Source: an uncultured Flavobacteriales bacterium
GTDB taxonomy: Bacteria > Bacteroidota > Bacteroidia > Flavobacteriales_G > Salibacteraceae
DNA: 64,000 nt
Direction of reading: 5' to 3'
Assembly: GCA_937899835.1 (NCBI GenBank)
Contig: CALCCE010000304.1
Span: 1 to 64,000 of the forward strand
Shown: positions 16,969 through 50,406 of the stretch, in pieces
Numbering within the stretch: the stretch's first letter is position 1
How the letters are laid out: each line of letters starts with the position of its first letter
Position numbers and translations under genes: made by a program
Notes under the pieces: generated by a model
The model's input: the letters and a program-made list of their open reading frames with translations, nothing else
Database searches by the model: none
What the model was told of the DNA's origin: nothing

Positions 16969-17973
16969 TTAGTGCAGAATTTTGTACACCAATTCCCGCA
17001 ACAACTCGCCGTCGGGGGTGCTGGCATTGTTCCAACCCTTCGATTTTAGGTCGTATTCCCGTAGGCTTCCAATGATCTCCACCGTTTTGCGCGGATTGTA
17101 GTAGCGCGAAGCTGTTTGGTAATCTTTCACGAAAAAGGGGTGAATACGGAGTGCTGAAGCCACCGAACGTTCGCTTTTGTCTTTTAAGAAATGATAGGTG
17201 AGAATCTTGCTGAAAAAGTTGTAAAGGCTGCTCACCGTCACCACAAAAGGATGTTGTTTGGGGTTTTGAGAAAAGCCCTGTACAATGCGGTTGGCCTTCA
17301 TCACATCGTGCTTTCCCAGTGCATTTTGCAGTTCGAAGGTATTGTACTCACGGCTGATGCCGATGTTTTCCTCAATGTGTTGGGGTGTGATTTCTAACCC
17401 CTCCGGAAGGTTGAGCAACAACTTGTCCAACTCATTGGCGATTTTACTCAAATCTGTGCCAAGGTACTCCGTGAGCAACACCGAAGCTTTGGGCGAAATC
17501 CGCATCCGCTTGCTCACCAGATACTTGTTAATCCAAGCCGGAATTTGGTTGTCATACAGCTTTTTGGATTCGAAAAAAACACTGTTTTTGGCCAATGCCT
17601 TGAAAAAGGCTTTGCGCTTATCGGGCTTTTTGTATTTGTAGCACAGTACCAGTACCGTAGAAGAAAGCGGATTTTCTACGTAAGCCGCTAAATCCTCGAT
17701 TTTGCGCATCTGTTGTGCCTCACGTACAATCACCACCTGATGGTTGGCCATCATTGGGAAACGTTTGGCCACTTCTATTACTGTGGCAGCATCCGTATCA
17801 CGGCCGTATACCACCGTTTGGTTGAAAGCCTGCTCCGATTCGTCCAGCACATGATTGGCAATGTAATCGGTGATGTAGTCGATAAAATAAGCCTCTTCTC
17901 CGAAGAGAAAGTAGATCGGGCGGTATTGGCCCGTCTTCAGGTCTTTAACTATTTGATCGAAAGTAGCGGCCAT
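16969..17973 (-). CDS. holA: DNA polymerase III subunit delta
   Basis: Clamp-loader subunit that opens the sliding clamp. The 334-residue protein starts MAATFDQIVKDLKTGQYRP and has YFLFGEEAYFIDYITDYI, the degenerate AAA+ P-loop region of HolA, followed by FPMMANHQVVIVREAQQM and the C-terminal helical collar. Its ATG overlaps the amn stop by one base (TAATG at 17971-17975 read on the minus strand), so its translation is coupled to amn. No terminator is obvious in the 188 bases between it and the receptor gene. Confidence 0.93.
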   Translation of the reverse strand: MAATFDQIVKDLKTGQYRPIYFLFGEEAYFIDYITDYIANHVLDESEQAFNQTVVYGRDTDAATVIEVAKRFPMMANHQVVIVREAQQMRKIEDLAAYVENPLSSTVLVLCYKYKKPDKRKAFFKALAKNSVFFESKKLYDNQIPAWINKYLVSKRMRISPKASVLLTEYLGTDLSKIANELDKLLLNLPEGLEITPQHIEENIGISREYNTFELQNALGKHDVMKANRIVQGFSQNPKQHPFVVTVSSLYNFFSKILTYHFLKDKSERSVASALRIHPFFVKDYQTASRYYNPRKTVEIIGSLREYDLKSKGWNNASTPDGELLRELVYKILH

Positions 17974-18746
17974 TACTCGAATCGCAAATGCTTGACCGAC
18001 CGGCCGTGGTTGATGATTTCTTTCAACGAATCGATGCCGATTTTTACGTGTTGCTCGGCGAACTGTTGGGTAACTACTTTATCGCTGGCCGTGGTTTTTA
18101 CTCCATCGGCAATCATCGGTTGGTCCGATACCAACAACAAGGCTCCGGTAGAAATTTGATTGGCAAACCCTACCGTAAACAGCGTGGCCGTTTCCATATC
18201 AATGGCCATTGCCCGAATCTTGCGCAGGTATTTTTTGAACTTTTCGTCATGCTCCCACACCCGCCGGTTGGTGGTGTATACCGTACCGGTCCAGTAGTCG
18301 CGGTTGTATTCCCGAATGGTAGAGGAGATCGCCCGTTGCAGGTTAAAGGCAGGCAAGGCCGGCACTTCTTTTGGAAAATAGTCGTTGGAGGTTCCTTCCC
18401 CCCGCACCCCTGCCAGGGGCAGAATGAGGTCGCCCAATTCGTTTTTGCGCTTCAAGCCGCCACACTTGCCCAAAAACAACACCGCCTTGGGCGAAATGGC
18501 ACTGAGCAAATCCATAACGGTGGCCGCATTGGCGCTGCCCATCCCGAAATTGATGATGGTGATGTTGCCCGCGGTGGCGTTGGGCATCACCTTGCCCACT
18601 CCTTGTACCGGGATGTTGTGTAGATTCGCAAAAAGGTCGACGTAATTGTTGAAGTTGGTTAATAAAATGTACTCACCGAAGGACTCCAAGGGAGTGCCCG
18701 TGTACCGGGGAAGCCAGTTGCCTACAATTTCTTCTTTCGTCTTCAT
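17973..18746 (-). CDS. amn: AMP nucleosidase
   Basis: Hydrolyses AMP to adenine and ribose 5-phosphate. The 257-residue protein is the short, catalytic-domain-only form of the phosphorylase fold. Visible signatures are NITIINFGMGSANAATVMD, FLGKCGGLKRKNELGD, AIDMETATLFTVGF with the ribose-binding Glu-Met-Glu-like segment, and LLLVSDQPM. I start at 18746 (MKTKEEIVGNW); a longer frame reaching 19112 would be antisense to the HsdR_N gene and is rejected. It is coupled to holA by a one-base overlap. The start is only 27 bases from the divergent gene at 18774. Confidence 0.92.
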   Translation of the reverse strand: MKTKEEIVGNWLPRYTGTPLESFGEYILLTNFNNYVDLFANLHNIPVQGVGKVMPNATAGNITIINFGMGSANAATVMDLLSAISPKAVLFLGKCGGLKRKNELGDLILPLAGVRGEGTSNDYFPKEVPALPAFNLQRAISSTIREYNRDYWTGTVYTTNRRVWEHDEKFKKYLRKIRAMAIDMETATLFTVGFANQISTGALLLVSDQPMIADGVKTTASDKVVTQQFAEQHVKIGIDSLKEIINHGRSVKHLRFE

Positions 18747-18773
18747 GCGTCTACCATTTCTTGATGTTGCAGC

Positions 18774-19232
18774 ATGCAAGCCCTGAACCTGCCCACATAC
18801 ATTTTCAAAATTAAATCGGAGGGGCAAAGATCCCAAATTTTCGACAGTACTCGCCGTAAATATGTTGCCTTGACTCCCGAGGAATGGGTGCGGCAAAACT
18901 ATGTGGAATTTTTGGTGCAGGAGCGGCAGTTTCCCCGCTCGTTGATGGCCATCGAGCAATCGCTCACCTACAACCGGATGCAACGCCGGTGCGACCTGTT
19001 GGCCTACACCCAAACCGGGCAGCCGGCATTGATGGTGGAATGCAAAGCCCCAAATATTAAGATCGACCAAAAAGTATTCGATCAGATTGCGCGCTACAAC
19101 ATGAGCCTTCAAGTACCGTATTTGGCGGTAACCAATGGCTTAGAACACTACTATTGCTACATCGATTTAGCCAACCGTAGTTACCGGTTTTTGCCCGATT
19201 GTCCCGCTTTTGGCCAATTGACTACCGCTTGA
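18774..19232 (+). CDS. Small stand-alone HsdR_N-type nuclease-like protein
   Basis: A 152-residue protein equivalent to the N-terminal nuclease domain of type I restriction HsdR subunits (type I R protein N terminus family), with no helicase part and no hsdM/hsdS nearby. The PD-(D/E)XK-like core is seen as RMQRRCDLLAYTQTG (Asp) followed by ALMVECKAPNIKI (Glu-x-Lys) and a helix QKVFDQIARYN. Such solitary proteins are widespread in Bacteroidota, usually near holA, as here. A housekeeping nucleic-acid role is more likely than restriction, but this is untested. It is divergent from amn with only 27 bases between start codons. Confidence 0.85.
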   Translation: MQALNLPTYIFKIKSEGQRSQIFDSTRRKYVALTPEEWVRQNYVEFLVQERQFPRSLMAIEQSLTYNRMQRRCDLLAYTQTGQPALMVECKAPNIKIDQKVFDQIARYNMSLQVPYLAVTNGLEHYYCYIDLANRSYRFLPDCPAFGQLTTA

Positions 19233-19274
19233 TCGAAACCGACGGCTTAGAATCCTCGTCCTGAGTGGTTTTGA

Positions 19275-19282
19275 TAACTTTG
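19275..19282 (+). promoter_or_regulatory. Promoter -7 box for the first S8 protease
   Basis: TAACTTTG matches TAnnTTTG and lies 40 bases before the ATG at 19323. No convincing -33 TTG at the usual spacing. Confidence 0.4.
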
Positions 19283-19322
19283 TACAGGAACTTCCAGCTG
19301 ACATTTGCGTATTTATCAGCCT

Positions 19323-22175
19323 ATGAATAGAATTCTGAAGCGGAGTATAGTGACGGCCATCGCCGGATTGTGGAGCATGATGGCTTGGAATGGGGCTTTG
19401 GCGCAATCAACCACCAACCTGGATTTGTATTTGCAAGGGGTGGTGGCCAATCCCGAAATGCAAACCACCGACATTCATTTGTTTGTTCAAGGCGATGTCA
19501 ACCGTATTCAAAGCCGCACTGAAGCCCTTGGAGGCGTTTTTAAATACCGATTCCGCAACTATGCGGCCATCCTTTTACCAGTACCCGCTTTGCCACAATT
19601 GGCCGATGAGCCTTACGTTTCGCGGGTAGTAGCCAGCATGGGCAAAGGCCAGCCACTCAACAACCAATCGGCCATCAACAACAATGTGGTGATCGTGCAA
19701 AACGGACAAGCCCCCTTGCTTCAAGGCTATGACGGTAAGGGCGTTTTGATGGGACTGATTGATACTGGCATCGATTTCAATCACCCCGATTTTCAAGACA
19801 GTTTAGGCAACACCCGGGTCATTCAAATCTGGGACCATACCGTTACGGGAAACCCAGCAAAGACTCCCAGCTATGGCTACGGCCAGATTTACGACAGTAC
19901 CGAAATCAATGCCGGTACTTGCCCTCATGTGGATGATCCGGGCTGGTTTGGCCATGGCAGCAACGTAAGTGGCATTGCGGCCGGAAATGGTCGGGCAGTA
20001 GGAGATTATAAAGGAGTAGCCCCCGAATCTGAAATGATCATTGTGCGCAGCAATTTTGCTGCTGCCAACTGGACGGCCACCATTGCCGATGCGGTGGATT
20101 ATATTTTTAGAAAAGCCGATTCTTTGGGCCGGCCGGTAGTGATCAACGCCAGTTTGGGTACTTACTACGGATCACACGACGGTTTTGATCCGCCTGCGCA
20201 AATGATCGATAGCCTGTTGGAGGCCAAACCCGGTCGGGTGATGGTGGCTGCGGCAGGCAACTCAGGCAATTGGGTACCCTATCACCTGGGTTACGATGTT
20301 ACCTCCGACACCAATTTTACCTGGTTCGAATACAATCCCAATCCAGGCTTACCCTATGGCGCAGTATTCTTTGAAATCTTTGCCGATACGCAAGATTTTA
20401 ACCAAGTTTCTTTCGCCTTGGCAGCCGATCAGGTGGTAGGCGGATACGCTTTTAGAGGACGCACCGCTTTTGATGGAATACAGAATCGACTCAACACCAC
20501 CTTCAACGATTCCATCATGTACAATGGTGCCAGAGTGGCGAGCATTCAAACTTTTGCTTTTGTTGGCGATGGTGGAGTTTACCGCTTCCAGATAGTCATC
20601 CGTCCTGATTCTACACAATACAATTTTCGTTTGGAAACCACGGGTTCGGGCCGCTTCGATGTGTGGTCCGACACCTGGACGGGCCATTCGCACATGGTAG
20701 ACACTGCTTTGCCAGATGCCGCCACGTACCCACCGATTGTTAATTACAAGCGTCCCGACCTTTTTAAAACCCTGGTGTCTTCCTGGACCTGTTCTGACCA
20801 TGTGATCACTGTGGGCAACTACATCAACCGCGATCAATACCTGGACGTAGACAGCAACCTGCAAACCTTTCCTGATCCGGCCGGTACGATTTCCGACGAT
20901 TCAAGCTGGGGACCCAATCGACAAAACGGACAAAAACCAGACATTGCTGCGCCCGGAGGCATGACCTTGGCCAGCGGCAAACTCGATCACCTCGCCAACC
21001 TGTTGGCCAACACTTCGTTTCGGTCAAGGGTAGGTTTGGGCGGTTTTCACTACCGCAATGGCGGTACTTCCATGGCCGCACCGGGAGTAGCAGGCATTGC
21101 TGCGCTCTACTTGCAAAAATGTCCTCAAGCCACTTACGCTGAGGTAAAACAAGCCATTGTCAATTCTGCGAAAGTGGATGCATTTACCGGCGGAGTTCCC
21201 AATGAACGTTGGGGTGCCGGAAAAGCCGACGGTTTTCAGGCGCTGTTGCAATCGCAATTTCAACCGCAGCTGACCACCGCAAGCGGAAGCCACAACGTGT
21301 GCACAGGCGATACGCTCGAATTGTTTGCTGGTGCCAACTTCACCGTGGAAGAAGCTTACAATGGAACTCAACTCATTGCTCCTTTGGTAACCAACCAAGG
21401 CGCTTTTCATGCTTTAGTTGCCAACAGCAGCGGTTGTTTGGCGTGGTCTGATACCCTGGTGGTCACCGAAACCAACCCGCCGGCCATGCCTGCGGTGCAA
21501 ACTGGTGGAGCCACGGCCTTTTGTGAAGGAGATACCTTTCAAATGAGTGTGCCCAATACCTTCTCGGCCTACGCCTGGACCAATGGTGACACCATCGCGG
21601 TTACCGGAATTGTGGATACCGGTTGGCACAGTGTAGAAGTCACCGATGCCAACGGCTGCACCGTTTCCTCGGATAGCGTTCAACTGAGCTTTCATCCAAC
21701 ACCTCCTGTGCCGGTGGTGCAATGGAATACCCCCGTTTTGTCTACCGGGAATTTTGCCGGCTACCAATGGTATTTTAACAGTTTTCCACTCAGTGGAGCT
21801 ACCGATAGTGTTTTAACTGTTTCGCAGTCGGGGGTGTACTTTGTGGAGGTAAGCAATTTGGAGGGATGTAGCTCCAATTCCTCCATCGTAGATGTGTTTT
21901 TTACCGGGATAGCTACTACTCAAAATCAAGACTTGGTCTGGTTCCCCAATCCGGTACGTGATGAAATGCAGATTCACTTGCAATCCCAAAGTCGCGAATC
22001 GATTGAATTGCAATTGTGGGATGTATTGGGAAATCGACTTCCTGGGTGGAGTCAACAATATTCTGCTGGAACAAAGCAAATCACTTGGAATCTTGGAGGC
22101 CTGCCCAGTGGGGTATACCTCTTAGCGGTGCAACAAGGTCTGAACTATTCCACCCACAAGGTCGTTATTCAATAA
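19323..22175 (+). CDS. Subtilisin-like (S8) protease with T9SS type A sorting domain
   Basis: Secreted serine protease, 950 residues. A signal peptide (to about MMAWNGALAQ) precedes a propeptide-like region and an S8 catalytic domain with triad Asp147 (GLIDTGIDF), His211 (WFGHGSNVSGIAAG) and Ser583 (GGTSMAAPGVAG). The large gap between His and Ser reflects an insert with a beta-rich, PA-like or jelly-roll region. Ig-like repeats follow (two copies around VTDANGC), then a C-terminal domain WFPNPVRDEMQIHL to the end (GLPSGVYLLAVQQG), the T9SS type A signal that directs transport through the outer membrane and surface attachment or release. The second protease gene begins four bases after its stop. 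Confidence 0.93.
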   Translation: MNRILKRSIVTAIAGLWSMMAWNGALAQSTTNLDLYLQGVVANPEMQTTDIHLFVQGDVNRIQSRTEALGGVFKYRFRNYAAILLPVPALPQLADEPYVSRVVASMGKGQPLNNQSAINNNVVIVQNGQAPLLQGYDGKGVLMGLIDTGIDFNHPDFQDSLGNTRVIQIWDHTVTGNPAKTPSYGYGQIYDSTEINAGTCPHVDDPGWFGHGSNVSGIAAGNGRAVGDYKGVAPESEMIIVRSNFAAANWTATIADAVDYIFRKADSLGRPVVINASLGTYYGSHDGFDPPAQMIDSLLEAKPGRVMVAAAGNSGNWVPYHLGYDVTSDTNFTWFEYNPNPGLPYGAVFFEIFADTQDFNQVSFALAADQVVGGYAFRGRTAFDGIQNRLNTTFNDSIMYNGARVASIQTFAFVGDGGVYRFQIVIRPDSTQYNFRLETTGSGRFDVWSDTWTGHSHMVDTALPDAATYPPIVNYKRPDLFKTLVSSWTCSDHVITVGNYINRDQYLDVDSNLQTFPDPAGTISDDSSWGPNRQNGQKPDIAAPGGMTLASGKLDHLANLLANTSFRSRVGLGGFHYRNGGTSMAAPGVAGIAALYLQKCPQATYAEVKQAIVNSAKVDAFTGGVPNERWGAGKADGFQALLQSQFQPQLTTASGSHNVCTGDTLELFAGANFTVEEAYNGTQLIAPLVTNQGAFHALVANSSGCLAWSDTLVVTETNPPAMPAVQTGGATAFCEGDTFQMSVPNTFSAYAWTNGDTIAVTGIVDTGWHSVEVTDANGCTVSSDSVQLSFHPTPPVPVVQWNTPVLSTGNFAGYQWYFNSFPLSGATDSVLTVSQSGVYFVEVSNLEGCSSNSSIVDVFFTGIATTQNQDLVWFPNPVRDEMQIHLQSQSRESIELQLWDVLGNRLPGWSQQYSAGTKQITWNLGGLPSGVYLLAVQQGLNYSTHKVVIQ

Positions 22176-22179
22176 CAGC

Positions 22180-24249
22180 ATGAAAAATCTTGTTTTTATA
22201 ACCCTTTTCGGTCTTATTCTTGGCTGGTCTGCCACTGCGCAAAACAAGACTGCAAAAAACCTTTACCAATTGCCGCAAGGAATGACAGCCGACGATTATC
22301 AGGTCGGTTTGGTGGTATTGAAACTCAAAGAGCAGCACCGGCCCTTTGCTCAAGACGGTGAAATCAACCTCGCTGCCCTGCACGATGCCTTAGCGCCTTT
22401 TGGCGACTATTCCTTCACCCGACTTTTTCCACATTCTCCACGGCCCACCGAAGATCGCGATCACCTGGGGCGGAAATTAGTAGACATTACCCTCATCTAC
22501 GAATTGAAACTAAACGAGTCGGTAGCAATTCCTCAGGTCATTCGTGCCCTTTTGCCGCTGGGTATTTTCGATTACGTGGAGCCCAAAATCCTGGACAAGA
22601 TCACTTTCATACCCAACGATCCCGAGATCAATGATCAGTGGCACCTGGATTTGCTCAAAGCGTTTGACGCCTGGGACATCACTACCGGCGATACCAATGT
22701 GAAAGTAGGGGTCATTGATACCGGCATTGATCCTGACCACCTGGATTTGCGCCACAACATTGCTTACAACCACCAAGATCCTATCAATGGTTTTGATGAT
22801 GATATGGACGGTTATGTAGACAACTTTCGGGGGTGGAACCTTCCTTCCAACAACAACGATCCCTCTATATCCGACAACGACCATGGAGTGCACGTTTCTG
22901 GTTGTGTTTCCGCGGGCACCAACAACAACATTGGTGGAGCAGGCATAGGTTGGAATACCCGAATTCTTCCCATCAAAGGCGGAAGTGGCAATTCCATCTC
23001 TCGGGGCTACGAGGGCATCGTATATGCAGCCGACCAGGGTTGCGACTTCATCAATTGCTCCTGGGGCAGTTATTTCAAAAGCCAGTTCAACCAAGACATC
23101 ATCAACTATGCGACCATCAACCAAGGCGCATTGGTGTTTGGAGGAGCGGGCAACCGAGGTACCGATGACGTTTTTTATCCGGCGGCTTATCAGCACGTGA
23201 TGAGTGTTGGAGCCACCACCATTACCAATGCCCGCGCAGGTTTCTCCAATTTTGGCTACACCGTGGATGTATTTGCTCCCGGAGATGATATTTGGTCGAC
23301 CCTGGACAGCAGCAAATACGGTTTCAATCAAGGTACTTCGATGTCTTCGCCCATGGCGGCAGGATGCGCTGCCTTGGTGAAAGCGCAATTTCCGTGGATG
23401 ACTCCACAGCAATGTGGAGAACAAATTCGGGTAACTGCCATGAACATCGACTCGGTGACGCCCAACCAAAGTTTAGCAGGTCAGTTGGGGCGTGGTCGGG
23501 TAGACCTTATCAAAGCCCTTTCGGGCATGAACACGCCTTCGGTGGTATTGCTCGATGCCATCATTACCGATGACAACGATGAAGTCTACATTCCGGGAGA
23601 TACGGTGTACTACTCGGCCAGTTTTCTCAACTACCTGGCCCCAACCGGCACCTTGAACGCCTTGATGACAACCGCTTCACCAGATGTAACGATCATCAAC
23701 GGAAGTGTGACCCTCGGGGTAATGAATACCCTGGAAAACAAAGACAATTATAACAATCGCTTTGCGGTGGTGATCAACAATTCGGTAGCAGTCAACGAAG
23801 AAATTACTTTTCGGGTGCGGCTTACCGACGGCACGTATCAAGAAGATTACCGTTGGTCTATCTTGGTCAATCGCGACTACCTGAACATTGCCGAAAACCG
23901 CATTCATACCTCGATGATTGGAAACGGACGGGTTGGCTATCGCGATGCGGCAGGAACATTAGGACTAGGACTTAGTTTGGATGGAACCATCAGCAGAATT
24001 TATGAAGCGGGTTTAATGGTCGGGCAAAACACCGGCACGGCCAAAGTCGTGGACGCGGTTACAGGCGAACCCAATCAAATTGATGACGATTTTCGGCCAC
24101 TGCTGGCTCCTTTTCGGGTCATGAATGGTCCTGTTTCAGATTTTGACGGGCGTGGTCGGTTCGATGACAGCCAGGCGGGGGCAGATAACCTCGGGCTTAC
24201 CATTGATCAACGTTCGTTTGCCTGGAATGATTTGGGACACCGCAATTAA
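22180..24249 (+). CDS. Subtilisin-like (S8) protease, N-terminal part of an interrupted gene
   Basis: Signal peptide (MKNLVFITLFGLILGWSATAQ), inhibitor-like propeptide and a complete S8 domain with Asp180 (GVIDTGIDPDH), His235 (DNDHGVHVSG) and Ser387 (GTSMSSPMAAG). A Ca-binding-like acidic stretch (GFDDDMDGYVDN) is present. The frame ends at TAA 24247-24249 in the middle of a beta-rich C-terminal region, without a sorting signal. The same frame resumes after a second stop (TAG 24268-24270) and continues through a T9SS domain to 25032. As encoded, the 689-residue product would have an intact catalytic site but could not use T9SS. It follows the first protease by four bases and is co-transcribed with it. 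Confidence 0.88.
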   Translation: MKNLVFITLFGLILGWSATAQNKTAKNLYQLPQGMTADDYQVGLVVLKLKEQHRPFAQDGEINLAALHDALAPFGDYSFTRLFPHSPRPTEDRDHLGRKLVDITLIYELKLNESVAIPQVIRALLPLGIFDYVEPKILDKITFIPNDPEINDQWHLDLLKAFDAWDITTGDTNVKVGVIDTGIDPDHLDLRHNIAYNHQDPINGFDDDMDGYVDNFRGWNLPSNNNDPSISDNDHGVHVSGCVSAGTNNNIGGAGIGWNTRILPIKGGSGNSISRGYEGIVYAADQGCDFINCSWGSYFKSQFNQDIINYATINQGALVFGGAGNRGTDDVFYPAAYQHVMSVGATTITNARAGFSNFGYTVDVFAPGDDIWSTLDSSKYGFNQGTSMSSPMAAGCAALVKAQFPWMTPQQCGEQIRVTAMNIDSVTPNQSLAGQLGRGRVDLIKALSGMNTPSVVLLDAIITDDNDEVYIPGDTVYYSASFLNYLAPTGTLNALMTTASPDVTIINGSVTLGVMNTLENKDNYNNRFAVVINNSVAVNEEITFRVRLTDGTYQEDYRWSILVNRDYLNIAENRIHTSMIGNGRVGYRDAAGTLGLGLSLDGTISRIYEAGLMVGQNTGTAKVVDAVTGEPNQIDDDFRPLLAPFRVMNGPVSDFDGRGRFDDSQAGADNLGLTIDQRSFAWNDLGHRN

Positions 24250-24270
24250 GTAATTTTTGAATATACCTAG
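24247..24270 (+). other. Two in-frame stop codons splitting the second protease
   Basis: TAA at 24247-24249 and TAG at 24268-24270 are in the same reading frame as both flanking open frames. Between them the frame reads VIFEYT, and after them HNPSASDLLALHSG, both natural continuations of a secreted-protease beta domain. No base has been gained or lost. This looks like two nonsense substitutions rather than a gene boundary. Confidence 0.75.
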
Positions 24271-24312
24271 CACAACCCCAGTGCGTCCGATCTTTTAGCG
24301 CTCCATTCGGGA

Positions 24313-25032
24313 ATGTATACCGATTGGGATATTGTGATTGCGAACCGCAACAAGGCTTTTTACATGCCCGAACGCCTGATGGGTTACTGTCAATACACCA
24401 TTGCCTCCGGAGCAGGGTTGTTTGGCGGGGTGCAGTTGCTCACACCAGGTTTTTTCTACACCTATTCGCTTGATCTGGTCGGCGGTGGCAACGGAGGAGT
24501 TGATATTTTCGATGTAGGTGGCTTTTCATCGGAAGACAAGTTTACCAGCATGAGCACCAATCGGCCCTCTGCGGGTACCAACAGCACCAATGGCAACGAT
24601 GTAGCCCAGGTGGTAGCTACCGGACCTTTTGATGTGCTCGCTGGCGATTCGATCAAAGTAGCGTTTGCCATCCATATGCACGAAAGCCTGGATAGTCTTG
24701 CCGCCAGTGCCGACTCCGCCTACCTGCGTTACAACGGCCAGTTGCCGGTGAGTGCACCAGAGTTGACCGAGGGTCAAAATAATTGGAGGGTATTCCCCAA
24801 TCCCAGTCAGGGACTCCTCACCCTTCAAGGACAAGTTGCAGCCGGTGAAAAGGTTGAGTTTCGGCTCATGACCTTGGAAGGAAGGACGGTTCGTGCCTTG
24901 CAGCTATCAGGACAGCCACAAAATGCAAATCAATTTGAGCTCAACCTCGAAGGATTACCGGCAGGTATCTACCTCTGGCAAGTTTCGGGCAACACCATGG
25001 TGAAAACCGACCGTTTGGTGTTGTTGGACTGA
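24313..25032 (+). pseudogene. Detached C-terminal part of the second protease, with T9SS type A domain
   Basis: In-frame continuation of the 22180 gene: the first Met here (GMYTDWDIVIANRN) is internal to a beta-rich domain and no signal peptide, ribosome site or promoter precedes it. The end, NWRVFPNPSQGLLTLQGQ through GLPAGIYLWQVSG, is a good T9SS type A sorting domain. Alone it could not be exported, so it is best treated as the stranded remainder of a disrupted gene. Codon use and composition match the first part, suggesting recent interruption. Confidence 0.75.
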
Positions 25033-25079
25033 ACCTTGAGAATCATTCTTCGAAAGGTACAAGGCGCAAAGAGAATTGC

Positions 25080-25087
25080 TATTTTTG
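25080..25087 (+). promoter_or_regulatory. Promoter -7 box for the DUF5606 gene
   Basis: TATTTTTG matches TAnnTTTG and lies 24 bases before the ATG at 25112, a normal distance. No clear -33 TTG. Confidence 0.4.
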
Positions 25088-25111
25088 TCACCTTTTCACA
25101 AATATTGAATT

Positions 25112-25618
25112 ATGGATCTGACCAAGATCATTTCTATCTCGGGAAAGCCCGGCCTGTTTGAAATTGTAGGCCAAATGAAGAATGGGGTAGTGGTAGAATC
25201 GCTCTTAGATGGGCGCAGGACCCCTGCTTATGCGACTCAACAAATCAGTTCTTTGGAAGACATCAGCATCTATTCCGATGACGATGATGTGCCGCTCAAA
25301 GACATTTTTGGCATGATTAAGGCCAAAGAAAACGGTGGTAAAGTGACGTTGAGTTCGAACAACAACAGCGCTTTTAAAGCCTATTTCGAAGAGGTTTTTC
25401 CAGATTTTGATCGCGATCGGGTGTATACTTCCGACATTAAGAAAGTGGTGAAGTGGTACAACCTGTTGATGGAAAAAGGGTATCTCGAAGAAGAAGAAGC
25501 CGAAGCTACCGAAGAAGCCCCCTTAGTGGAAGATGCTGAAATTGTGGAAGAAAGAACCGAAGAAGCTTCGACCACTTCTGAAGCCCCTGAATCCACTACT
25601 ACTGAAGAGGAAGATTAA
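25112..25618 (+). CDS. DUF5606 protein
   Basis: A 168-residue cytoplasmic protein of the Bacteroidota-specific DUF5606 family, whose function is unknown. The conserved domain covers about residues 1-130: it opens with a small beta-rich part (SISGKPGLFEIVGQMKNG, VVESLLDGRRTPAYA) and is followed by a helical part (SDIKKVVKWYNLLMEKG). The last 45 residues are a Glu/Thr-rich, disordered acidic tail, variable in the family. It has its own -7 box and is 41 bases upstream of the M3 peptidase gene. Confidence 0.85.
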   Translation: MDLTKIISISGKPGLFEIVGQMKNGVVVESLLDGRRTPAYATQQISSLEDISIYSDDDDVPLKDIFGMIKAKENGGKVTLSSNNNSAFKAYFEEVFPDFDRDRVYTSDIKKVVKWYNLLMEKGYLEEEEAEATEEAPLVEDAEIVEERTEEASTTSEAPESTTTEEED

Positions 25619-25659
25619 CGATTTTTCTCTTCAAGCTGTTTCTCCAAAGCCTTAATTTT

Positions 25660-27384
25660 ATGTCTGATTCTTCCATCGAATTGCCGGTAAAGCCTGAACG
25701 GCGACTTTTACCCGACGATTTCACCGTAACCTCCTGGGACCAACTCCAACCTTACTTTGAGGAATTGCTGCACCGGGAGACGCCCACTCCGGAAGAATTG
25801 TACAGCTGGATGAAGGACCGCAGTGAACTCGAAGCGGTGCTGGAAGAAGACCTGGCCTGGCGTTACATCAAAATGAACATTGATACCACCGATCCTGAAC
25901 TGGCCAAGTCGTTTCAGTTTGTGGTGAAGGAGGTAGAGCCCAAGATTGCTCCTTACTCCAATCAGTTTGACAAAAAGCTGCTGGGTGCCGACCAATTGCA
26001 AGCGTTGGATCAGGAGAAATTGCACATTCACTTGCGCAAGGTGCGCAAAGCCATAGAAATTTACCGGGAAGAAAACGTTCCACTTTTTGCTCAACTGCAA
26101 ACCGAGGCCCAACAATATGGCGTGCTCACTGGCGGGATGACCATTGAAGTGGAGGGAAAAGAGCTGACCATGCAAGGGGCAGCCAAATACCTGAAAGATC
26201 CCGATCGTGACCGCAGGGAAGCGGTGTATCACCAAATGACCGCCCGTTGGCAAAAAGAGCGCGAGAAGTTAAACACCCTTTTCGATCAATTGCTGCAGCT
26301 GCGTAACGGAGTTGCTACCAACGCCGATTTTCCCAATTTCAGAGATTATATGTTCAGCGCCATGAGCCGTTTCGACTACACGGTTCAGGATTGTTACGAT
26401 TTTCACGAAAGCATTCGCACAGAGATTTTACCCATTGTAAAAACCTTTGCCGAAGAGCGCCAGGCCTTGCTCAATGTAGAAGCACTCAAACCCTGGGACG
26501 GAGAAGTTGACCCCAGTGGTCAACCGGCTTTAAAACCATTTGATACCGGTGCTGAACTGCTCGAAAAGTCCATTGAATGTTTTCGCCGGGTGCGCCCCTT
26601 CTTTGGCGATTGTTTGGCCATTATGCGCGAAATGGGGCATCTCGATCTCGAATCGAAAAAAGGGAAGGCCCCGGGAGGATTCAACTATCCTCTGTATGAA
26701 ACCGGAGTGCCCTTTGTGTACATGAATGCAGTAGGTGCCTTTCGCGATGTGGTAACCATGGTGCACGAAGGTGGACATGCCATCCATTCTTTTTTATCGC
26801 GCAACCTGGAGCTAACCGCCTTCAAGCAATTGACTTCCGAAGTGGCTGAATTGGCCTCGATGAGCATGGAGCTCATTTCCATGGAACACTGGGACGTTTT
26901 CTTTTCCAATGAAGAAGAACTGAAACGCGCCAAAAAAGAGCAGTTGACCAAGATCATCAGCATTCTACCGTGGATTGCCATGATCGATAAGTTTCAGCAT
27001 TGGGTGTACGAAAATCCGAAGCACAGCCAGGAAGAACGCACCGCAAAATGGGTAGCCATTCACCAGGAGTTTGCTACCGGCCTCACCGACTGGACAGGGG
27101 AAGAAGAAAACCGTGCCATGGCCTGGCAAAAGCAGTTGCACGTGTTTGAAGTGCCGTTCTATTACATCGAATACGGCATGGCCCAGTTGGGTGCCATCGC
27201 GTTGTGGCGGAACTACAAACAAAATCCTGAGAAGGCTCTGGATCAGTACGAAGCGGCCCTAAAGCTCGGGTATACGCGCTCTATCGGTGAAATCTACGAA
27301 ACCGCCGGAGTCAAGTTTGATTTTTCAGCCGGTTACGTGAAAGAATTGGCGGCCTTTGTGCGGGAAGAGTTAGCACAGTTGTAA
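25660..27384 (+). CDS. M3 family oligoendopeptidase (PepF/Pz-peptidase type)
   Basis: Cytoplasmic zinc metallopeptidase that cleaves short peptides. The 574-residue protein is largely helical, with the zinc motif HEGGH at 369-373 (MVHEGGHAIHSFLS) and the downstream third-ligand region (LASMSMELISMEHWD, the Glu about 25 residues later). The preceding GGFNYPLYETGVPFVYMN segment is typical of the family's active-site strand. No signal peptide. It converges with murB, with 22 bases between the two stops and no evident terminator. Confidence 0.92.
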   Translation: MSDSSIELPVKPERRLLPDDFTVTSWDQLQPYFEELLHRETPTPEELYSWMKDRSELEAVLEEDLAWRYIKMNIDTTDPELAKSFQFVVKEVEPKIAPYSNQFDKKLLGADQLQALDQEKLHIHLRKVRKAIEIYREENVPLFAQLQTEAQQYGVLTGGMTIEVEGKELTMQGAAKYLKDPDRDRREAVYHQMTARWQKEREKLNTLFDQLLQLRNGVATNADFPNFRDYMFSAMSRFDYTVQDCYDFHESIRTEILPIVKTFAEERQALLNVEALKPWDGEVDPSGQPALKPFDTGAELLEKSIECFRRVRPFFGDCLAIMREMGHLDLESKKGKAPGGFNYPLYETGVPFVYMNAVGAFRDVVTMVHEGGHAIHSFLSRNLELTAFKQLTSEVAELASMSMELISMEHWDVFFSNEEELKRAKKEQLTKIISILPWIAMIDKFQHWVYENPKHSQEERTAKWVAIHQEFATGLTDWTGEEENRAMAWQKQLHVFEVPFYYIEYGMAQLGAIALWRNYKQNPEKALDQYEAALKLGYTRSIGEIYETAGVKFDFSAGYVKELAAFVREELAQL

Positions 27385-40127: not shown

Positions 40128-41534
40128 TTAGCTTCCACTAACAGCAATAGAGCCTTGGTAATGCATCGGCTTGCCGTCTTTGTCGGTAGTAACCACGGTC
40201 CAGACGTAAGTTTCGCCTTTACGCACCCGTTGGGTACTTTGCGCCAAACGGCCGTCCCACGGAGCGATTTCGGAAGTGTTGTACACCATCACCCCGCTGC
40301 GGTCGTAGATCGTCAGCTGAAAAGGAGGATGACTACTGGTAATGGCAAATGGAAACCAGTTGAGATTTTCACCATTCGGACTTGTAGGGTTGAAAGATCG
40401 AGGCGCCAACAGGTTGTAGTCAGAATATACCTGAACGTTTTCTTCCGTAACAGAGGTGCACCCGGCATCGTTCATCGCCAACACTTTTACCTGATGGGTG
40501 CCTTTGGTGTTAAAAATGTATTCTACCCGGTTGGTACCCATGAAAGTCGTTTCCTGAGTCGATAAACCTTCTTGACGAGTGCCCATATCCCACTGCAATT
40601 GAACGTTCTCGTTGGAAGTAACTTCCAAAACAGTGTAGGGGTTTCGAGTGAGATCGTCGGGCATTTTGGTGGTGATCGAAATTTGAGGGGCTTGTGCCAC
40701 TTCAATGGAAAGTTCATTGGACAAGTGCTCTTCTCCGTTGACATCAATGACTTTGAGGCGAACAGCATAGGATCCAGAACGCTCAAAAGCGTGAATGGGC
40801 ATTACTTCTTCTGAGGTATGGCCGTCTCCAAACTCCCAAATAAATTGACTTCCTGTTCCGGTAAGTTTAGCACTAAACGGTATAGGAGCTTGAGGACAAA
40901 CAGGGCCTTCGGTACTCGAAATTTCCACGACCATTGGTTGAGGAAGGTCCGGTTGAGGGCCGTCCACAATAGGATAGTTGGAGTTGAATGAAAATACTTT
41001 AGGAGCTGTAGTAACCTGATCTGGTGCTTCTTGAACAGGCTGCGTAACCACTTCTGACGGAGCGGTGTATTGAGAAGTCGTCGTGCTTTGGCTGTGAACG
41101 GTTCTCGGCTCGCTGGAGGCTGCGAAAGTATTGGCTTCCGATTCTAAAAGAGTAGCACTGATGGTCGATGCTTCCTCTGGCGTGTTTGCGGAAGAGGAAG
41201 GGACCACGGATTCGGAAGGTTGCTCTACAAGACCAGTGCTGGTAGCATTTTCAGGAGGTGTTTGAGCAATCATTTGTGTGGAAGCGGCTGCTGGAACTTT
41301 GGCTTGTGGTAAAGTGGTGCTGTCTTCAGAGAGCATCCAGTAGGAGCCTGCGGTAAGTAGTACCGCTGCCCCGGTGGCCAGCAGCCAACCTTTTCGGCCA
41401 CTCCCAACAGGAGTAGAAGAGGCATCCATCTTAGCGGAAAGCTCTTCCCAATGTGCGGGGTTGTAAGGAACCTCAAGCTGCTCGAGCGCATCTTTCATTT
41501 GGTTCTCAAACCCGGTATGATTTGTCTTAGCCAT
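40128..41534 (-). CDS. Membrane-anchored PKD protein with gliding-motility-type C-terminal domain; putative anti-sigma factor
   Basis: A 468-residue protein with an uncleaved-looking single membrane helix at about 49-68 (GWLLATGAAVLLTAGSYW). The first 48 residues are cytoplasmic and resemble the FENQMKDALEQLEVPYNPAHW segments of anti-sigma-like proteins in this phylum. Beyond the helix are a Thr/Ser/Glu-rich linker, a PKD domain (FIWEFGDGHTSEEVMPIHAF) and a C-terminal domain (RSFNPTSPNGENLNWFPFAI, LTIYDRSGVMVYNT, TYVWTVVTTD) like the CHU_C/T9SS type B region. Its ATG overlaps the sigma-factor stop by one base. Role as a transmembrane anti-sigma factor is inference from that coupling and topology. 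Confidence 0.8.
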   Translation of the reverse strand: MAKTNHTGFENQMKDALEQLEVPYNPAHWEELSAKMDASSTPVGSGRKGWLLATGAAVLLTAGSYWMLSEDSTTLPQAKVPAAASTQMIAQTPPENATSTGLVEQPSESVVPSSSANTPEEASTISATLLESEANTFAASSEPRTVHSQSTTTSQYTAPSEVVTQPVQEAPDQVTTAPKVFSFNSNYPIVDGPQPDLPQPMVVEISSTEGPVCPQAPIPFSAKLTGTGSQFIWEFGDGHTSEEVMPIHAFERSGSYAVRLKVIDVNGEEHLSNELSIEVAQAPQISITTKMPDDLTRNPYTVLEVTSNENVQLQWDMGTRQEGLSTQETTFMGTNRVEYIFNTKGTHQVKVLAMNDAGCTSVTEENVQVYSDYNLLAPRSFNPTSPNGENLNWFPFAITSSHPPFQLTIYDRSGVMVYNTSEIAPWDGRLAQSTQRVRKGETYVWTVVTTDKDGKPMHYQGSIAVSGS

Positions 41535-42245: not shown

Positions 42246-45200
42246 CTACCGCACCAAGGTAACGTGACCGGACACCTCTTTGGGCACACCAGCAAAATCG
42301 CGGTAACGAATGATGTAGGCATAATTTCCAGTAGGGAGAATGGTGCCGTCCTGGTTGTTGGTACCATCCCATTGGTTGGCTACATCTGTAGTGGCAAAAA
42401 CCTGTTGGCCCCATCGGTCGTAGATGATCATTTCAAAGTCGGGAAACCGGCCTCTAAAACCTTCTCCAACGGGCCCGAAGGTTTCGTTCAGATCATCGCC
42501 ATTCGGGGTAAATGCCTGTGGCACCCAAAAGGTGGAAATGTATTCTACGTAGAGCGAGTCGTTCACTGTATCGGTGCAGCCAAACTCATTTTCGATGGCC
42601 AACTCGATGTACTTCCAGCCCGTATCTTGATAAAATATGGAAAAATTGGACTTGGTACTGGTGCGGCCATTTCCTAAGTCCCAGTTGCGTATGAAGCTAC
42701 TCCCCGATAGGTCAGTAAATTCTACCACCGGGTCTTCACTGTTTGGAAAAATCGGAAAATAATTGAAAGATGCTCTCGGATTGGGTCGGCTATTGATATA
42801 GCACGGTTTTTTCAATCGGGTAATACACCCCAGGTCGGTGGTTACCTTTAGTGTTACATCATAGCAACCCACTCCTACAAAAGCATGGGGTACTAATGGG
42901 TCATTGTCTTGTATGGTGGTGCCGTCTCCGAAATCCCAGTCGTAGGCATAGCCCGGAGGAGCAACCGAATCGGGCGAAAAGTTGACCGTGACCGGGTCAC
43001 AACCTTCTAAAATGTCTGCCGAAAATTCAGGATTTTGAAAATCGCCCACGTAAATGGTTATTGTTTCCACGTCTACCGTTGAAAGGCAAGCGTCTTCTAC
43101 CGTTACGGAATACGTAGTGGTCACAACCGGATTGACAAAAAAGTTGGTGCCCTGACCAAGGCCTTGGTTGAAGGTATACGTCAAGGGTTGTACCCCACCG
43201 CCAGCGGTTGCCGACAGTTCAATCACATCTCCTTTACAAATGGTATCGCTACCATTGGGCGCGGTAGAAGCCTGAATGTCTGGATATCCCCCTACTTGGA
43301 TCAGAGTGAAGGCAGTTGTAGCCGGAGTGTTGCAAGCATCGGTTACCGTCACTACATATTGAGTAGTAGCATTGGGCGAAACCACATGTGCAGACCCTAT
43401 GCCCAAACCGTTGTTCCAATTGTAAGTGTAGCCTCCAAACCCTCCTGTGGCAGAAGCACTAATCGTAGCAAAATCGCCCGGACATATCGTATCTACCGGA
43501 AATGGGTTGGTGGTTACTTGGATGGAAGGATAGCCTCCTACCTGCACAAAAACATTGGTGATGAAAGCAGGACTGGCACAACCATCAGTTACGGTAACTA
43601 TGAACAAAGAAGGACTGGTAGGCGAAACCACAATTGGGTTACCCGTAGACCCATTGCTCCAGGTATAATTATAATTTCCGTCTCCACCGGTGGCCACCAC
43701 GCTGAGGGTAGTTTGATCACCAATACAAATGGTATCATCCGCTGTGCTGGCTATAGCACCGAGAGTATCCAATACCGTTACATCAACCGTATCCAAAGGA
43801 CCGCTACACCCGTTTGAATCAAAAACTTGCACGGTGTAACTGGTAGGCATTGCGGTAGTTACGTTAACGCTGGCTCCGGTTTGTCCAGTGCTCCATACAA
43901 AGGTATAAGGAGGTGTGCCTCCGCCAGCTGTGGCTGAAATGGTGTGGGTGTTGCTCACACAAACCGTAGTATCGTTGGATGCAGTGATGGTAAGCGAATC
44001 AGGTTGCGGAATGTTGACGGTATCCACGGTAGAGCAACCGTTTGCATCTGAAACGGTGACAAAATTATCGCCAAAACACAGCCCAAAATTCGTAGCAGAT
44101 GTTGTGCCGTTGGCCCAGGTAAAAGTATATCCTGGTTGGCCACCCGCTGCGGAAATCGTTGCCGAACCGTCACAGTTTGTTGTGCCAAAGCAACTCACCG
44201 GTTGAATATTGCTGGAAGTCGGTATAATTTGCGGAGGTTGATTGATGGTAACATTGCCAAAAGCCACCGAACCATTTCCATCAACTACCAAAGCAGAATA
44301 AGTACCCCCTGGTAGGTTAAGTACTGAATCGGTAGGGTTAGAGCTGGTTACTTGCCGAACAATGTTGTTGTTGGCATCCCGCCAGGTAAAAAACCAAGGG
44401 CCCACTGAATTGGAAGAAGTGTCTGTTCCTGTGATGTAGCCTGTACTATCCCCAAAACAGGGGACATCGAGGGAGTCAAAGACCGGAAACAAGCAAGAAG
44501 GAGTAACCAATACTGAGTCAGAGACGGTTGTGCCATTGCAAAGTGTTGCAGTAGCATAGTAGGTGGTAGGTTGTGTTGGTGAAACGTTGATAGAGGCTGT
44601 ACTGCCCACGGGTGGGCCGCCAAATCCTACCGTCCAGTTGAGGGAGCCTGGTGTATACCTCCGGCTGTCATTGGTAGCGGTCCACTGTGAATTGTTCCGT
44701 CCGGGAACTACGAAAGCTGTGGTACCCGCAATGTTGTGTAATCCTTGTGTCGCCCGATTGGGGTTGCCGGGAGGCCAGGTAAAACAGTTCGGTTTGGTGG
44801 TGATGTGGTTGTCAATAACGTTGGATCCCTCGTGCAACACAATTTGAAAAGTGCCAATGGTTCCGGTGCAACTAAACATGTACACATTATAGGAAACGAC
44901 AAACATTCGGTTTGGAGCAGTTCCAATTGTTTGGTAGCGCACAAAAGGACCTGCACCACCGGTGATCGATGGGTTCCAATCTTGCCAGGGGCCGAAAATG
45001 CAGTTTTTGGGCACGTTTCCTGCGGCACTTGGAATAGCATTAACACCCCAGTTGTTTCCCCATCCGAATGCAGGAGGAGTAAACGAAATCCAACCATTGG
45101 CCGCGATGTAGCAAGTCGTGTAGGTATTACAGAAAAAATCAAAAGAGAAACCAATGGGCACTGCTCCCGAAACAGCATCATCTCCCAGGGTAAGGGCTGT

Positions 45201-45398
45201 TCCAGTGGTCGTTTGAGGTGCAAACGGAATCGTGGAAATAACGTAGCTGTTGGAGTTGATCGATCCCGTTACCGAAGCGGTAAGGGTAACCGTATCCGGA
45301 GGACAAAAAATCGTGTCATTGCCAACAGATATCTGGGCTATGGTTGCTAAAGGCAGTGAAAAAACCGCCAACAGGAATGGAAGAATAAAGCGTCTCAT
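42246..45398 (-). CDS. Giant secreted adhesin-like protein with SprB, Ig-like and PKD repeats and T9SS type B domain
   Basis: A 1050-residue exported protein. Starting at the ATG at 45398 gives a signal peptide (MRRFILPFLLAVFSLPLATIAQ). A beta-rich N-domain of about 230 residues (IPFAPQTTTGTALTLGDD, AANGWISFTPPAFGWG) resembles a secreted carbohydrate- or matrix-binding module. Next are SprB-type repeats (PVSCFGTTNCDGSATISAAG, GDNFVTVSDANGCSTVD), three closely similar Ig-like repeats (each starting DTICxGD and ending VTVTDxC), two PKD domains (YDWDFGDGTTIQDNDPLVPH) and a C-terminal T9SS type B/gliding-motility domain (VPQAFTPNGDDLNETFGP, FEMIIYDRWGQQVFATTD). SprB is the mobile gliding adhesin of flavobacteria; whether this cell glides is unknown. 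Likely surface-exposed. Confidence 0.9.
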   Translation of the reverse strand: MRRFILPFLLAVFSLPLATIAQISVGNDTIFCPPDTVTLTASVTGSINSNSYVISTIPFAPQTTTGTALTLGDDAVSGAVPIGFSFDFFCNTYTTCYIAANGWISFTPPAFGWGNNWGVNAIPSAAGNVPKNCIFGPWQDWNPSITGGAGPFVRYQTIGTAPNRMFVVSYNVYMFSCTGTIGTFQIVLHEGSNVIDNHITTKPNCFTWPPGNPNRATQGLHNIAGTTAFVVPGRNNSQWTATNDSRRYTPGSLNWTVGFGGPPVGSTASINVSPTQPTTYYATATLCNGTTVSDSVLVTPSCLFPVFDSLDVPCFGDSTGYITGTDTSSNSVGPWFFTWRDANNNIVRQVTSSNPTDSVLNLPGGTYSALVVDGNGSVAFGNVTINQPPQIIPTSSNIQPVSCFGTTNCDGSATISAAGGQPGYTFTWANGTTSATNFGLCFGDNFVTVSDANGCSTVDTVNIPQPDSLTITASNDTTVCVSNTHTISATAGGGTPPYTFVWSTGQTGASVNVTTAMPTSYTVQVFDSNGCSGPLDTVDVTVLDTLGAIASTADDTICIGDQTTLSVVATGGDGNYNYTWSNGSTGNPIVVSPTSPSLFIVTVTDGCASPAFITNVFVQVGGYPSIQVTTNPFPVDTICPGDFATISASATGGFGGYTYNWNNGLGIGSAHVVSPNATTQYVVTVTDACNTPATTAFTLIQVGGYPDIQASTAPNGSDTICKGDVIELSATAGGGVQPLTYTFNQGLGQGTNFFVNPVVTTTYSVTVEDACLSTVDVETITIYVGDFQNPEFSADILEGCDPVTVNFSPDSVAPPGYAYDWDFGDGTTIQDNDPLVPHAFVGVGCYDVTLKVTTDLGCITRLKKPCYINSRPNPRASFNYFPIFPNSEDPVVEFTDLSGSSFIRNWDLGNGRTSTKSNFSIFYQDTGWKYIELAIENEFGCTDTVNDSLYVEYISTFWVPQAFTPNGDDLNETFGPVGEGFRGRFPDFEMIIYDRWGQQVFATTDVANQWDGTNNQDGTILPTGNYAYIIRYRDFAGVPKEVSGHVTLVR
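43020..43745 (-). repeat. Three tandem ~80-residue Ig-like repeats within the adhesin gene
   Basis: Three successive units, each about 245 nucleotides, start with Asp-Thr-Ile-Cys-x-Gly-Asp and end near Val-Thr-Val-Thr-Asp-x-Cys. Unit starts lie near 43736, 43492 and 43246 on the minus strand. Unit 1-2 similarity is high over the hydrophobic core (TYNWNNG-like against NYTWSNG-like); unit 3 is more diverged (TYTFNQG). Confidence 0.6.
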
Positions 45399-45425
45399 GT
45401 TTCCCGCAGAGATGGACCTAATTGT

Positions 45426-45433
45426 CAAACTTA
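45426..45433 (-). promoter_or_regulatory. Promoter -7 box for the adhesin-like gene
   Basis: Reads TAAGTTTG on the minus strand, an exact TAnnTTTG match, 27 bases before the ATG at 45398. Confidence 0.4.
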
Positions 45434-50142: not shown

Positions 50143-50370
50143 ATGGCCAATGGACTTTTGTTGTTTATCGGAACCCCTGAACTGATCATTGTGATGCTGG
50201 CAGTACTCTTGCTGTTTGGGTCAAAACGCATTCCTGAATTTGCCCGTGGGCTTGGTAGGGGCATTCGTCAGTTCAAAGATGCTACTCAGGACATTCAAGA
50301 CGATATCTTGGATTCGGCCCGAAGCATTGAGCGGGAAGCCCGCATGAAAGACAAGAAGGACGAGAGCTGA
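50143..50370 (+). CDS. tatA: Sec-independent translocase TatA/E-family protein
   Basis: A 75-residue twin-arginine translocation pore component, exporting folded proteins. One short N-terminal membrane helix (TPELIIVMLAVLLLF), the conserved FG hinge (FGSKRIPEFARGLG), an amphipathic helix (GIRQFKDATQDI) and an acidic/basic cytoplasmic tail. The ATG at 50143 follows the secDF terminator by 17 bases, so tatA must have a start or promoter embedded near the hairpin, or be reached by readthrough. The absence of tatC nearby is not unusual. Confidence 0.9.
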   Translation: MANGLLLFIGTPELIIVMLAVLLLFGSKRIPEFARGLGRGIRQFKDATQDIQDDILDSARSIEREARMKDKKDES

Positions 50371-50406
50371 AACAACCCCACGTACTAATTTTCTAGTTCC
50401 CCCCAT

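Follow-up and report, generated by a model that had tools for sequence, protein, structure and literature searches.

We propose that the gene at 22180-25032 on the forward strand of the window (the whole 64 kb stretch of DNA that was analysed) is the single copy of a positionally conserved T9SS type A subtilase, probably inactivated by two in-frame stop codons in the recent past of this lineage or strain. A single reading frame, opened by the ATG at 22180 and continuing to 25029 (+), is broken by a TAA at 24247-24249 (codon 690) and, after six further codons, by a TAG at 24268-24270 (codon 697), which leaves a 5′ part (22180-24249) and, in the same phase, a 3′ part (24271-25032) closed by a TGA at 25030-25032. 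A sequence-only reading of this DNA had described a T9SS subtilisin gene split in this way; re-reading of the DNA confirmed its coordinates and the shared phase of the two ORFs, and the description is borne out by the intact orthologues discussed below. No frameshift was found in the gene. The codon-usage scores of the broken frame are positive throughout, across both stops, and those of the other two frames at the same locus are zero or less, while residues 1-950 align as one continuous protein with full-length homologues. Sensible protein sequence had been claimed between and after the stops, and both the coding signal and the homology beyond them agree with this.

The two parts together have the layout of the T9SS type A (TIGR04183/PF18962) subtilases of peptidase family S8. 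The 5′ part consists of a signal peptide-like N-terminus, a propeptide, an S8 catalytic domain (Pfam Peptidase_S8, PF00082, 6e-48) and a long beta-rich region that extends to residue 689. The full Asp/His/Ser triad is present, since Asp180, His235 and Ser387, the residues already assigned to it by the sequence-only reading, are invariant together with Asn325 in an alignment of 14 homologues. The 3′ part, in which the earliest ATG is at 24313 and no signal peptide of its own was seen, contains the remainder of the beta domain followed by the C-terminal T9SS type A sorting domain (Pfam Por_Secre_tail, PF18962, 4.6e-10; TIGR04183, 9e-8), where it had been placed before. The gene differs from T9SS type A subtilases in the two stops between protease and sorting domain, such that the sorting domain is in phase with the S8 domain but does not share an open frame with it. 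The source genome encodes a T9SS, as indicated by a SprA_N domain in a 2479-aa frame (5e-162) and by at least 150 scored type A sorting domains (380 first-look candidates), which represent a very large T9SS cargo set. The window also contains two CHU_C (type B) proteins, at 40128-41534 and 42246-45428.

The orthology of the broken gene is fixed by its position. A DUF5606/DUF6852 gene, assigned by domain match, lies 79 nt downstream (25112-25618, +), and an intact orthologue followed on the same strand by a DUF5606/DUF6852 gene, at a distance of 2-144 nt, is found in 32 distinct other genomes or records. By position, the broken gene is hence orthologous to a T9SS type A subtilase, and it shares the gene neighbourhood of that subtilase. 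No second copy of it is present in the source genome. In 29 of the 34 other genomes of the same family there is one long, stop-free match to the full 950-residue reading, with unbroken frames of roughly 770-980 residues, the shortest of which reaches a contig end, and within this family search the stops occur only in the source genome of the window. A search across the class gave a match at E ≤ 1e-100 in 150 of 395 genomes, and among the matches listed the only stops are those described here and those of an unrelated, decayed paralogue (L165, G096:C1:3971000-3977000) in a single-contig genome, G096, that also keeps an intact copy of the subtilase. That paralogue has an N-terminal frameshift and two TAG codons at other positions, and a break site common to both genes was accordingly rejected. 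Interruptions are therefore rare among the matches listed, and each arose independently. Homologues that are naturally split at the same boundary, which would speak against a broken gene, were sought in the 35 genomes of the family, among the matches listed for the 395 genomes of the class and in 80 loci of a second collection, in which no relative exceeds about 41% identity (about 42% for the best relative overall); none was found, and the interpretation of the sequence-only reading stands.

The codons that the stops replace were determined by reading the stop columns against the codons of 63 homologues, an alignment that the sequence-only reading had called for. The first column, in which no homologue has a stop, contains Tyr in 42 and Phe in 11 of the 63, and the second contains Ile (43), Val (12), Leu (6), Met (1) and Phe (1). 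No codon in the second column can be turned into TAG by fewer than two substitutions, so that the two stops required a minimum of three base changes, or some local event of equal effect, within 24 nt. The earlier reading was right that two stops are present, but its count of two substitutions was too low, as the second stop alone takes at least two changes. Both the six intervening codons and those flanking the stops are typical of the family. When the protein is modelled with AlphaFold as read through (mean pLDDT 72), both stops fall within one predicted strand, E690-698, of the beta-rich domain, which places the break in mid-domain on this model rather than at a domain border or a natural protein boundary. 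Any role of a template switch or local repeat in creating the stops was rejected, as exact direct or inverted matches of at least 9 nt that would cover one of the stops are absent to a distance of about 1 kb. A short inverted repeat, AATTA-AG-TAATT at 24244-24255, holds the first stop, probably by chance.

With intact orthologues at the corresponding position in relatives, the broken gene resembles the interrupted coding sequences, or unitary pseudogenes, of bacteria, which likewise have in-frame stops, intact relatives and no other copy in the genome. Median identity to homologues is 0.32 and 0.33 in two segments before the stops and 0.36 and 0.43 in two segments after them, with the sorting domain itself being variable in the family (median 0.20). 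Because the conservation of these segments does not fall from one side of the stops to the other and the coding signal is kept, the break appears to be recent. Of the possibilities listed by the sequence-only reading, recent pseudogenization or strain-specific loss fits best, and its suggestions of phase variation and of useful readthrough found no positive support. Recent inactivation is the simplest interpretation, with the stops inferred to exist in the organism itself.

The sorting domain is established as essential for export by the T9SS (PMC4560394), which implies that the stump, as encoded, would not be secretable by this route. Translation would halt at codon 690, partway through a strand of the beta domain that lies between protease and sorting signal, and the product would be a signal-peptide-bearing protease stump that lacks the C-terminal domain required by the T9SS. 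It might be held in the periplasm, as a protease that is exported but not secretable, or else, since it ends in the middle of the beta domain, it may just be broken down. The 3′ part, having no signal peptide, would not be exported. The intact subtilase encoded immediately upstream might compensate for the loss.

Recent inactivation is complicated by the clustering of the lesions. Decay alone should scatter them over a gene, but here both lie within 24 nt, and two random nonsense sites in this gene fall no more than seven codons apart in 1.5% of draws. Unlike typical unitary pseudogenes, the gene has clustered stops, no frameshift and no further decay, and with at least three base changes packed into 24 nt, the second stop alone needing two or more, the damage has the appearance of a single local event, or of an error. 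The main rival, which we consider possible though less likely, is that the stops stem from an error in the local consensus or assembly and that the gene is intact in the organism. In its favour, closely packed changes are confined to 24 nt of an otherwise undamaged gene, the assembly is in 307 contigs, and in a resequencing study sequencing errors accounted for 28 of 73 interrupted genes in bacteria (PMC1852416). Against it, the stops are separated and flanked by codons typical of the family, and there is neither a repeat nor a second copy to account for a misjoin. The consensus also appears to be generally good: no other gene in the 64 kb window is visibly broken, and no stops are present inside any scored match of four families in the source genome, neither of which shows any sign of a genome-wide poor consensus, a possibility that was rejected. 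A candidate second broken gene at 50368-50386 was likewise rejected, being the end of a tatA-like ORF followed by an exchanger gene in phase.

Readthrough of the stops at a rate sufficient to yield a full-length secreted protease is very unlikely. Both halves are well preserved, and a survey has argued that in-frame stops in prokaryotes are often read through, over short evolutionary times (PMC7918605); the gene resembles the readthrough genes of that survey in having conserved sequence on both sides of its stops. It differs from them in having two different stops in tandem, which would multiply the loss, and in that these are shared with no relative (class-wide, among the matches listed). The release factor 1 gene (prfA) is intact in the window, and the two codons are ordinary terminators there, with 26 of 35 genes ending in TAA, six in TAG and three in TGA. 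Recoding of TAA or TAG was rejected on these grounds and because no further case turned up in the window or among the T9SS cargo genes that were examined; there is no sign that either codon is reassigned in the genome. Among these cargo genes there is no second example, as the short-frame genes inspected, which lie within contigs rather than, like several others, at contig edges, are whole short genes apart from one ambiguous case (L144), and a recurrent pattern of stop-split cargo was rejected as well. A double stop acting as a leaky or strain-switchable gate, with the protease either kept periplasmic or passed full-length through the T9SS, is given almost no credence. T9SS cargo needs a signal peptide, and a real fission into two genes, one for a protease of the periplasm and one for a T9SS tail protein, to which the two ORFs and the ATG at 24313 might point, seems highly improbable when the second ORF lacks this peptide, when the boundary is inside the predicted strand 690-698 rather than at a domain border and when no homologue (class-wide, among the matches listed) is split there. 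Ordinary gene loss or a local sequence error, rather than a new mechanism, is most likely.

For annotation, the two ORFs should be merged into a single broken gene, and this widespread secreted protease should not be counted among the products of the genome unless the reads are checked. If the stops are real, they offer a clean example of a bacterium with abundant T9SS cargo that has recently lost a secreted protease whose gene position is conserved.

The intact subtilase upstream (19305-22175, +; 956 aa; PF00082 and PF18962) is separated from the broken gene by 4 nt and is itself a T9SS subtilase, a homologue of which also precedes the orthologue in several relatives. Its S8 match is in two separated pieces, one at residues 144-321 and one further on, which suggests that the catalytic parts are separated by a long insert. 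Neither Rfam nor tRNA features were detected in the window. The conserved neighbourhood as a whole covers 16969-27384 and includes a holA-like gene, a phosphorylase-superfamily gene, one or two T9SS subtilases, the DUF5606/DUF6852 gene and an M3 peptidase. The phosphorylase-superfamily and holA-like genes recur near the orthologue, and the parts of the neighbourhood outside the subtilase-DUF5606/DUF6852 pair are found in fewer than the 32 genomes or records that have the pair.
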